From Sporichthya brevicatena (GTDB taxonomy: Bacteria > Actinomycetota > Actinomycetes > Sporichthyales > Sporichthyaceae): a DNA stretch of 64,000 nt. Under the pieces are notes generated by a model. That model saw only the letters and a list, made by a program, of their open reading frames with translations. It searched no databases and was not told the origin of the DNA. The stretch spans positions 172,891 to 236,890 of the forward strand of contig NZ_BAAAHE010000044.1 of NCBI RefSeq assembly GCF_039525035.1. The letters run 5' to 3'. Positions 39,993 to 41,933 of this stretch are shown in pieces; position 1 is the first letter of the stretch, and each line of letters starts with the position of its first letter. A program made the position numbers and the translations under genes.

Positions 39993-40041
39993 CGTCGTTG
40001 GGTACCGTGCGGACAGCCCCGCTGCCCGAGAAGGAGAACGT

Positions 40042-40905
40042 GTGATCGACCAGTCCCGCCGGGATGCGATCGCGGCCAAGGTGGTCGGACGCACGCGCGA
40101 ACTCGACCTCGTGCTCGCCGCCGTGAGCGCCGGCCGCGACATCCTGCTCGAAGGCCCGCCCGGCACGGGCAAGTCGACGCTGTTGCGGGCGATCACCGCG
40201 AACTGGGGCGTTCCGTTCGTCCTGGTCGAGGGCAACGCCGAGCTCACCGCGGCCCGCCTGGTCGGCCACCACAACCCGGCGCGGGTCCTCAAGGAGGACT
40301 ACAGCGCGGACAACTTCGTCGCCGGTCCGCTGCTCGAAGCCATGCAGGGCGGCGGCTTCCTCTACATCGAGGAGTTCAACCGGGCTCCCGAGGACACGGT
40401 GAACGTCCTCCTCGCCGCCATGGCGGAACGTCAGATCGCCGTCCCGCGCGTGGGTCTGATCACCGCCAAGGACACCTTCCGCGTCGTCGCCTCGATGAAC
40501 CCGTACGACTCGGTCGGCACCGCCCGGATCTCCGACTCGGTCTACGACCGCTGGTGCCGCCTCGCGGTCGGCTACCAGGACGCCGCCGAGGAGGAGGCGA
40601 TCGTCGCCACCCGCACCGGGTGCACCGACGACCGCCTCGTTGCCGACGCCGTCGCGATCACGCGCGCCACCCGCGGGCACAAGGAACTGCGGCGCGGGTC
40701 GTCCGTGCGCGGGGCGATCGACCTGACCGCGATCGCGTCCGAACTCACCGGCCTGGCCACCGGCACCGACGCCGAGGAGGCGCATCGCAACCGCGTCCTC
40801 GACGCCGCGTTGCTCGCGCTGTCCGCCCGTATCTCGCTCGACGAGGCCAGCGACCGTACCCCCGAGGACGTCATCCGGGACATCTGGGAGCGCCATTTTT
40901 TCTGA
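40042..40905 (+). CDS. MoxR-type AAA+ ATPase
   Basis: 287 residues from a GTG start with AAGGAG 6 bases upstream. Walker A GPPGTGKS at 38-45, Walker B/ Glu segment FLYIEEFNRAPED, sensor and arginine finger regions in ASMNPYDSVGTARISDSVYDR. MoxR ATPases act as chaperones that activate partner proteins, usually with a VWA-domain protein encoded next to them, as here. The gene ends CAT TTT TTC TGA; the Ts form a canonical -1 slippery heptamer and the downstream VWA frame continues exactly in the -1 frame. Confidence 0.93.
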   Translation: MIDQSRRDAIAAKVVGRTRELDLVLAAVSAGRDILLEGPPGTGKSTLLRAITANWGVPFVLVEGNAELTAARLVGHHNPARVLKEDYSADNFVAGPLLEAMQGGGFLYIEEFNRAPEDTVNVLLAAMAERQIAVPRVGLITAKDTFRVVASMNPYDSVGTARISDSVYDRWCRLAVGYQDAAEEEAIVATRTGCTDDRLVADAVAITRATRGHKELRRGSSVRGAIDLTAIASELTGLATGTDAEEAHRNRVLDAALLALSARISLDEASDRTPEDVIRDIWERHFF

Positions 40906-40925
40906 GGGCCCGGCGCAGCCCGGGC
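40896..40925 (+). promoter_or_regulatory. candidate -1 ribosomal frameshift signal at the MoxR/VWA junction
   Basis: T TTT TTC at 40896-40902 (zero-frame codons TTT TTC), immediately followed by the MoxR stop TGA, a 5-base spacer and a 6-bp GC hairpin (40908-40913 with 40920-40925, loop CGCAGC). A purine run GGGAG lies 5 bases upstream of the heptamer. Slippage by -1 would read CTG AGG and join MoxR to the VWA protein. A six-T run is striking in DNA this GC-rich. Confidence 0.45.
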
Positions 40926-41933
40926 GGTAACAGCGTTCTCCTCGACGACCCCGACGGCTTCCCCTCCGACAACCCGCTGCGGGAAGGGCTCGCACCGTTG
41001 CGGCGTCGGCCCAAGAAGCTGACGGAGATGCCGTCGCTGTTCGGCGGCGGTGGGCCGCCGTTGGTGCTCGACCTCGGCGCGGACCGCGACGCCGAGACCG
41101 GCGGCCCTCCCCCGCCGGGGTCGCAGCGCACCGTCGTCACCGCGCAGGCGGGTTCCTGGCGGGATGTCGGCGACCTGCTCGAGGAACGGGAGCCGGACCC
41201 GGAGATCGATCGGATGGCCCGTCAGATCTCGCGCAACCTGGCGCTGCGCCGGACCTGGCGGGACGCCGACGTGGCCGCGGGCTCGGGCCGGCCGATCTCG
41301 GTGCCGTACCACTACCGCTCCGACGAGATCGACCTCGACCGAACGCTGGAGGTCCTCACCGAGCGCCCCGTGCCCGAGGACACGGACATCATCGTGCGCG
41401 AGTCGGTGCGCCGCAGCATCGACGTCGTGCTCATGGTCGACGTCTCCGGGTCGATGCGCGGCGAGAAGGTGCGGGTGGCCGCCGCGACCGTCGCCGCCCT
41501 GTCCAGCGCCCTCTCCGGCCCGGGCGCCGGGCACCGCCTCGCCCTCGTCGGGTTCTGGTCGGACGCCGCACTCCTGGAGCCGCTGACCGGCAACACCTCC
41601 CCCGTCGTCCTGCTCGACCGCCTGCTGCGGATCCCCGCGCGCGGACTGACGAACGTCCACTTCGCCCTCACCGTCGGCGACGCGGTGCTGAAGACCTCGG
41701 GCGCCCGCCGGCAGGTCGGCGTGCTGCTCACCGACGCCGTGCACAACGCCGGGCCCGACCCACGGGACGTCGCCCGCCGGTTCCGGGAACTGCACGTCCT
41801 GCTGCAGACCGACGGCGAGCACGACCGCGACCTCGGCCGGGACATCGCCAAGCTCGGCAAGGGCATGACCGCCCCGATCCGGACCCATCGCGACGTCGCC
41901 CCGGCTCTGAACCGGGTACTGGGCCGGGGCTGA
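40902..41933 (+). CDS. VWA-domain partner of the MoxR ATPase (start unresolved)
   Basis: About 343 residues if counted from the CTG at 40902. C-terminal von Willebrand factor A domain from about residue 165 with the MIDAS motif DVSGSM, followed by FWSDAALLEPL and LTNVHFALTVGD. Codon bias is fully coding from directly after the MoxR stop, yet no ATG or GTG occurs there: options are a CTG at 40902 overlapping the stop (CTGA), a TTG at 40998 with AAGGG upstream, an ATG at 41028, or expression as a -1 frameshift product of the MoxR gene. Such VWA proteins bind metal and cooperate with MoxR in assembling or activating another complex. Confidence 0.85.
   Translation: MRARRSPGGNSVLLDDPDGFPSDNPLREGLAPLRRRPKKLTEMPSLFGGGGPPLVLDLGADRDAETGGPPPPGSQRTVVTAQAGSWRDVGDLLEEREPDPEIDRMARQISRNLALRRTWRDADVAAGSGRPISVPYHYRSDEIDLDRTLEVLTERPVPEDTDIIVRESVRRSIDVVLMVDVSGSMRGEKVRVAAATVAALSSALSGPGAGHRLALVGFWSDAALLEPLTGNTSPVVLLDRLLRIPARGLTNVHFALTVGDAVLKTSGARRQVGVLLTDAVHNAGPDPRDVARRFRELHVLLQTDGEHDRDLGRDIAKLGKGMTAPIRTHRDVAPALNRVLGRG

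Follow-up and report, generated by a model that had tools for sequence, protein, structure and literature searches.

Candidate programmed -1 frameshifting at a MoxR-VWA junction of Sporichthya brevicatena and an in-frame UGA at the same junction in a sister clade

In a 64,000-nucleotide (nt) stretch of the Sporichthya brevicatena genome (RefSeq assembly GCF_039525035.1, contig NZ_BAAAHE010000044.1, positions 172,891 to 236,890 of the forward strand; hereafter, the window), a gene for a MoxR-class AAA+ ATPase ends with a run of six T immediately before its stop codon, and the coding region of a VWA-domain protein continues from that point in another reading frame. How do ribosomes enter the VWA frame? 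An initial annotation made from the sequence alone had proposed a programmed -1 frameshift that fuses the two proteins. Our comparison of the junction with its counterparts in related genomes supports this proposal: very probably, programmed -1 ribosomal frameshifting at T TTT TTC yields free MoxR along with a minor MoxR-VWA fusion. The evidence is drawn from sequence and consists of the conservation of the heptamer and of a downstream hairpin, the absence of a shared VWA start codon, the protein-like character of the -1 frame from the slip site onward, and the existence of homologs in which MoxR and VWA form a single open reading frame (ORF).

The MoxR-VWA junction

The junction and the two coding regions comprise the following features.

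40030..40036, + strand: Shine-Dalgarno sequence GAAGGAG of the MoxR gene, 5 nt before GTG 40042 (from the sequence)
40042..40905, + strand: MoxR-class AAA+ ATPase, zero frame, 287 amino acids and TGA stop (Pfam AAA_5, 2.1e-23; AAA_3, 2.4e-14)
40153..40179, + strand: Walker A motif GPPGTGKST of MoxR (from the translation)
40886..40890, + strand: GGGAG, possible Shine-Dalgarno-like stimulator, coincident with MoxR Trp-Glu codons; found in the -1 clade and explained by the protein
40896..40902, + strand: slippery heptamer T TTT TTC, identical in 32 of 33 relatives; the sole T6 in the window
40902..41933, + strand: VWA coding region, -1 frame, 343 codons and stop (Pfam VWA_2, 2.2e-10; VWA, 4.6e-9); aligns across the junction with natural fusions
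40903..40905, + strand: zero-frame UGA stop of MoxR, adjoining the heptamer; the same in three genomes of the genus
40908..40925, + strand: putative stimulatory hairpin, 6-bp stem GCCCGG/CCGGGC, 6-nt loop, 5-nt spacer from the heptamer; perfect stem in 35 of 35 -1 loci, with stem codons fixed and the loop free
41439..41456, + strand: start of the MIDAS motif, DVSGSM, of the VWA domain (from the translation)

The two proteins constitute a MoxR AAA+/VWA pair, that is, an AAA_5/AAA_3 protein with a Walker A motif adjoining a VWA protein with a MIDAS motif. The MoxR gene, which starts at GTG 40042 and stops at TGA 40903-40905, ends in CAT TTT TTC TGA, such that T TTT TTC (40896-40902) lies in the zero-frame phase of an X_XXY_YYZ heptamer, as the initial annotation had stated. 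Its description of the surroundings was likewise accurate: a spacer of 5 bases leads to a perfect 6-bp GC stem (GCCCGG-CGCAGC-CCGGGC, 40908-40925), the VWA frame is exactly -1 relative to MoxR and stays open until TGA 41931-41933, and there is no ATG or GTG near its beginning, the first ATG, GTG or TTG past the slip site being TTG 40998. The run of six T, noted earlier as rare in GC-rich DNA, indeed occurs once in the 64-kb window (71.5% GC), in which A6 does not occur at all, and CATTTTTTCTGA has a single occurrence in the whole genome. The GGGAG element does lie 5 nt upstream of the heptamer, at 40886-40890, and is present in nearly all -1 loci; because the protein sequence itself dictates these bases, as part of TGG GAG for Trp-Glu, they do not represent independent evidence.

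Conservation of the slip site and the hairpin

Scanning of GTDB genomes and of the window's own genus yielded 33 loci with a matching junction motif, from the window genus, Pseudonocardia, Actinomycetospora and Nocardia alni, with VWA identities of 54-97%. The VWA region is in the -1 frame in all 33, and TTTTTTC is identical in 32 of them, the remaining locus, L014 from a metagenome-assembled genome, having TTTTTCC. At the other phenylalanine positions of these MoxR and VWA genes, the codon is TTC in 308 cases and TTT in none, and the 32 coding-strand T6 runs in 202 kb of these loci are all slip sites. The alignment of orthologous junctions, suggested at the outset as a check, thus recovers the heptamer in nearly every motif-matched locus and a perfect GC stem in every -1 locus; relatives with an ordinary start codon in place of the heptamer were not encountered. 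Two more distant loci are also of the -1 type. L069, from genome G998 of family f4, has a T8 run, CATTTTTTTTGA, with its own 7-bp hairpin (positions 1490-1530), and in Patulibacter minatonensis, a more distant actinobacterium (L011, 2975-3060), the -1 register and a 7-bp hairpin are retained and the slip site is CTATTTTCC.

The perfect stem, of 6-12 bp, is present in 35 of 35 -1 loci and begins 2-7 nt past the heptamer (5 nt in the window, 6 nt in most loci); the stem sequences differ between the window genus, Pseudonocardia, L069 and Patulibacter. In a test of synonymous conservation over the 624-codon fused MoxR-VWA frame of 33 -1 sequences, the highest conservation falls in the windows that contain the slip site and the hairpin, with z values up to 4.5. 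The codons of the stem are identical in every compared sequence (observed 1.00, expected 0.40-0.48), and those of the loop vary as expected (observed 0.50 and 0.42, expected 0.40 and 0.43). By this measure, by the retention of TTTTTTC in 32 of 33 loci and by the absence of TTT elsewhere in these genes, the slip site is under purifying selection beyond that exerted by protein coding.

Several observations weigh against programmed frameshifting or temper the case for it. The hairpin of the window is, taken alone, ordinary, being equaled by 26% of synonymous recodings (P 0.26), and synonymous shuffling of single-genome hairpins in general gives P values of 0.005-0.38, that is, such structures are not rare; the evidential weight of the hairpin therefore comes from its conservation and not from the window hairpin itself. 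Within Pseudonocardia the stem is nearly invariant and so offers little within-clade covariation, and part of the conserved region, up to the zero-frame stop, is dual-coding. Furthermore, TTTTTCC in L014 and CTATTTTCC in Patulibacter permit only a P-site phenylalanine slip on T_TTT.

Predicted products

Under the frameshifting model, ribosomes would read MoxR as far as CAT TTT TTC, where the majority would terminate at the adjoining UGA to release free MoxR (31.0 kDa, computed). The hairpin would stall a fraction of the ribosomes, which would move one base back, with the phenylalanine tRNAs re-pairing on TTT TTT, and resume at CTG AGG GCC into the VWA frame. The predicted fusion consists of 630 amino acids, with the junction IWERHFF-LRARRSPGG; its computed mass is 68.0 kDa, close to the figure of about 67 kDa given originally. 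The corresponding Pseudonocardia sequence, translated in the zero frame as far as TTT TTC and in the -1 frame from there on, is IWENHFF-LxPRRAAPGPHRLDVDN. Single-ORF MoxR-VWA fusions, among them L057 (an 814-codon open frame), align with the frameshift product without gaps across the junction; the junction alignment is looser with L058 and other single-ORF fusions of family f58. We infer the tandem slip itself, its efficiency and its purpose as parts of the model.

In one further assembly (L059/L068, G743:C76), MoxR and VWA are joined in the same frame at the junction; further on, another frame break divides the VWA part, and there is a change of frame in moxR as well. These breaks could be assembly errors or signs of decay.

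Alternative explanations

The VWA protein could, in principle, have its own start. Initiation at CTG 40902, which overlaps the MoxR stop (CTGA), with translational coupling and with GGGAG as the Shine-Dalgarno sequence, would render the T run incidental. The three genomes of the window genus all have this codon, as does L035, and GGGAG is located 11 nt upstream of it; however, the window CTG is CTC in 29 of 33 loci even though 32 of the 33 retain the heptamer, and a CTG start leaves the conservation of T6 and the hairpin unexplained. The substitution by CTC led us to reject this start, which we regard as very unlikely. Even less credible is initiation further away, at TTG 40998, ATG 41028 or GTG 40554 inside moxR, all of which are present in the VWA frame, with the -1 register a coincidence. 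In the -1 clade, the first ATG, GTG or TTG past the slip site comes 20-107 codons on (2 in L069) at positions not common to relatives, and no canonical VWA start shared among relatives was found in the -1 loci examined. L004, L023, L033, L035 and L069 also carry stop codons in the VWA frame, 11-41 codons ahead of the slip site. L004, L023 and L035 have no canonical start ahead of the conserved PLRRxPK motif; in L004 (genome G002), the stop lies 15 codons upstream of the slip site, and no canonical start follows from there to codon 41, beyond PLRRKPK. In addition, the 93 nt before TTG 40998 differ between the window and its nearest relative (L002 vs L003) at 1, 2 and 7 sites in codon positions 1, 2 and 3 of the VWA frame, respectively, a pattern indicating that this stretch is translated. 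With these starts unshared, with stops in several relatives and with protein-like sequence before 40998, we rejected all three, and their combined chance of being the answer seems extremely small.

If the VWA frame is reached from MoxR, the shift might occur in transcription, with slippage on T6 lengthening or shortening some of the mRNAs so that these encode the fusion. The run, T6 in the window and T8 in L069, lends this some plausibility, but T6 is a short run for RNA polymerase slippage. For transcriptional slippage, runs of Tn with n over 8 are cited (PMC3711429). A downstream hairpin with a conserved stem and a free loop better suits ribosomal than transcriptional slippage, and the latter appears very unlikely, albeit not quite as much as a CTG start. 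Finally, the true number of T could be different, through sequencing error or decay of the gene, in which case MoxR-VWA would be one ordinary ORF. Relatives with single-ORF fusions do exist, but the same T run and the -1 register recur in more than 30 separately sequenced genomes, isolates included; on this ground a homopolymer error was rejected, and its probability is close to negligible. Thus, the CTG start, TTG 40998 and the homopolymer error, all of which the initial annotation had listed as competitors, each fail against the relatives, in favor of programmed -1 frameshifting.

An in-frame UGA in a sister clade

In 37 loci, MoxR and VWA are encoded in one frame split by a single UGA (L008, L009, L046-L052, L054 and L070-L098; junction at about 1510-1535 in the oriented loci). 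These loci come from family f4 (Mycobacteriaceae-like), f19, f38 and the other genus of the window's own family. The context of the stop is GGT-TGA-AGA in 26 and GGT-TGA-AGG in 11, with no exception among the 37, in genes where, elsewhere, GGT accounts for 332 of 1798 glycine codons and AGA and AGG together for 124 of 2590 arginine codons. Protein similarity extends on both sides of the UGA, which is itself the peak of synonymous conservation (z 4.3), and there is no start codon downstream of it that is shared across the 37 loci. The simplest reading is that readthrough of this UGA likely occurs in the sister clade, to judge from these sequence patterns; reinitiation at non-canonical codons may operate instead. 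Insertion of selenocysteine is unlikely, given that, among 20 UGA genomes, only three have a selenocysteine tRNA above the cut-off, and two of these exceed it by a narrow margin. With its fixed GGU-UGA-AGR context, this clade lends itself to testing whether stop codons are naturally read through in actinobacteria. G998, the genome that holds the -1-type locus L069, also carries a UGA-type copy (G998:C50:101556-102560).

A search of plasmids produced two matches only, both from Rhodococcus and both of the UGA type (UGA sites at L102:5986-5994 and L103:5608-5616), with MoxR and VWA annotated as separate genes. In L103 (Rhodococcus ruber plasmid pmega_1, 5700-5760), the annotated VWA start is ATG 5758, about 145 nt past the UGA; the annotated protein is probably truncated, with the conserved KPLRRRPK region cut off. 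Annotation pipelines thus report two genes, in at least one plasmid record with a VWA start that is too late, and the fusion is invisible in databases.

In a maximum-likelihood tree, built by a quick method and containing long branches, the -1 loci and the UGA loci each constitute a clade of their own, with support of 97 and 99, respectively; the single-ORF fusions fall outside both recoded clades, and one fusion is the sister of the -1 clade. This topology implies that the ancestral state was probably a plain fusion and that recoding was probably gained twice.

Relationship to known systems

The closest analogy is the chlD gene of magnesium/cobalt chelatases, in which -1 programmed frameshifting at an A-run slip site gives AAA+ and AAA+-VWA products (PMC3711429, PMC9227772). 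In both cases, a single gene would encode the AAA+ protein alone and an AAA+-VWA fusion through a -1 frameshift at a homopolymer, annotation shows two adjacent genes, and relatives have single-ORF fusions. In contrast to the T6 and the conserved GC hairpin of MoxR-VWA, chlD has A-rich runs without strongly conserved structure, and the proteins belong to a different MoxR/VWA family: MoxR scores 26.1 bits against the BchD-ChlD cut-off of 499.55, and VWA 26.1 against 779.45 for Cob-chelat-sub. The MoxR protein is also below the cut-offs of the NCBIfam families GvpN and MadB_ATPase; it matches MadB_ATPase (NF047784) over residues 87-261 (1.7e-20), but with 73 bits against a cut-off of 475 it is not a member. 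Membership in the MadB, GvpN and chelatase families was accordingly rejected, all scores being below cut-off. The layout of the signal resembles that of Escherichia coli dnaX, with a Shine-Dalgarno-like element, an X_XXY_YYZ heptamer, a short spacer, a GC hairpin and a nearby stop; however, the dnaX heptamer is A AAA AAG and not T TTT TTC, the dnaX frameshift gives the shorter product whereas that of MoxR-VWA would give the longer fusion, and the Shine-Dalgarno-like element here is without independent support.

With regard to function, NorQ/NorD and other MoxR AAA+/VWA chaperone pairs (PMC9976466, PMC13036017) likewise combine a MoxR AAA+ protein with a VWA protein containing a MIDAS motif. 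NorQ and NorD are separate proteins, whereas the model here predicts a covalent link between VWA and a MoxR subunit. A single NorD VWA protein associates with each NorQ hexamer (NorQ6:NorD1; PMC9976466). Because one VWA protein serves a MoxR-class hexamer, plain MoxR would have to be in excess wherever VWA is produced exclusively in fused form, and the recoding site would supply that ratio from a single mRNA. We propose that the slip site serves to build MoxR rings in which a minority of the subunits bear VWA, the fusion presumably joining plain MoxR in mixed rings. Along with chlD, MoxR-VWA suggests that recoding is a recurrent means of fixing the proportion of subunits with and without VWA in AAA+/VWA machines. 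Apart from those of insertion sequences, phages, dnaX and prfB, few frameshift genes of bacteria are well supported; MoxR-VWA would extend this short list with a gene of high-GC actinobacteria whose slip site is a U run.

Genomic context and the link to mycofactocin

The genomic context connects this family with mycofactocin. The mycofactocin maturase MftC is present above cut-off in 22 of 22 tested holders of the MoxR-VWA family, recoded or fused, the window genome among them; in genus g38, it was detected in 3 of 3 holders and in 0 of 5 non-holders. In six genomes, MftC is located about 2-9 kb from VWA, and the pairs of relatives adjoin mycofactocin-coupled short-chain dehydrogenases (SDRs), MftD or an alcohol dehydrogenase dependent on N,N-dimethyl-4-nitrosoaniline (NDMA). 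SDR and related neighbor matches were obtained for 33 of 37 UGA loci and 23 of 36 -1 loci by tblastn with few queries, only some of them being confirmed above a curated cut-off. The client of MoxR-VWA is probably a mycofactocin-linked or mycofactocin-dependent enzyme.

Taken as a whole, and with moderate confidence, we propose that MoxR-VWA is a mycofactocin-linked family, ancestrally a single-ORF fusion, that twice independently acquired recoding at the junction, as a T_TTT_TTC -1 frameshift with a hairpin in the Sporichthya-like/Pseudonocardia clade and as GGU-UGA-AGR readthrough in the f4/f19 clade, both giving free MoxR and a minor fusion from one mRNA, with the ratio itself under selection. 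Such a family would connect a MoxR-VWA machine with mycofactocin, about whose accessory proteins little is known. Mechanisms of this kind are known; in the open-access literature searched, we found no account of the gene family, of the T-run signal and its conserved hairpin or of the parallel UGA site, and no earlier report that links MoxR to frameshifting or, in the present sense, to mycofactocin, subscription literature and databases of recoded genes being outside the scope of that search.

For the window itself, the link to mycofactocin is by co-occurrence only, because MftC is encoded on another contig (G000:C7:406977-407990) and no mycofactocin genes adjoin the pair in the window, the neighbors being pirin, an AidB-like dehydrogenase and a luciferase-like monooxygenase. 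The same genome contains a second, distant MoxR/VWA pair (L006, G000:C7:393012-393686), about 14 kb from mftC.
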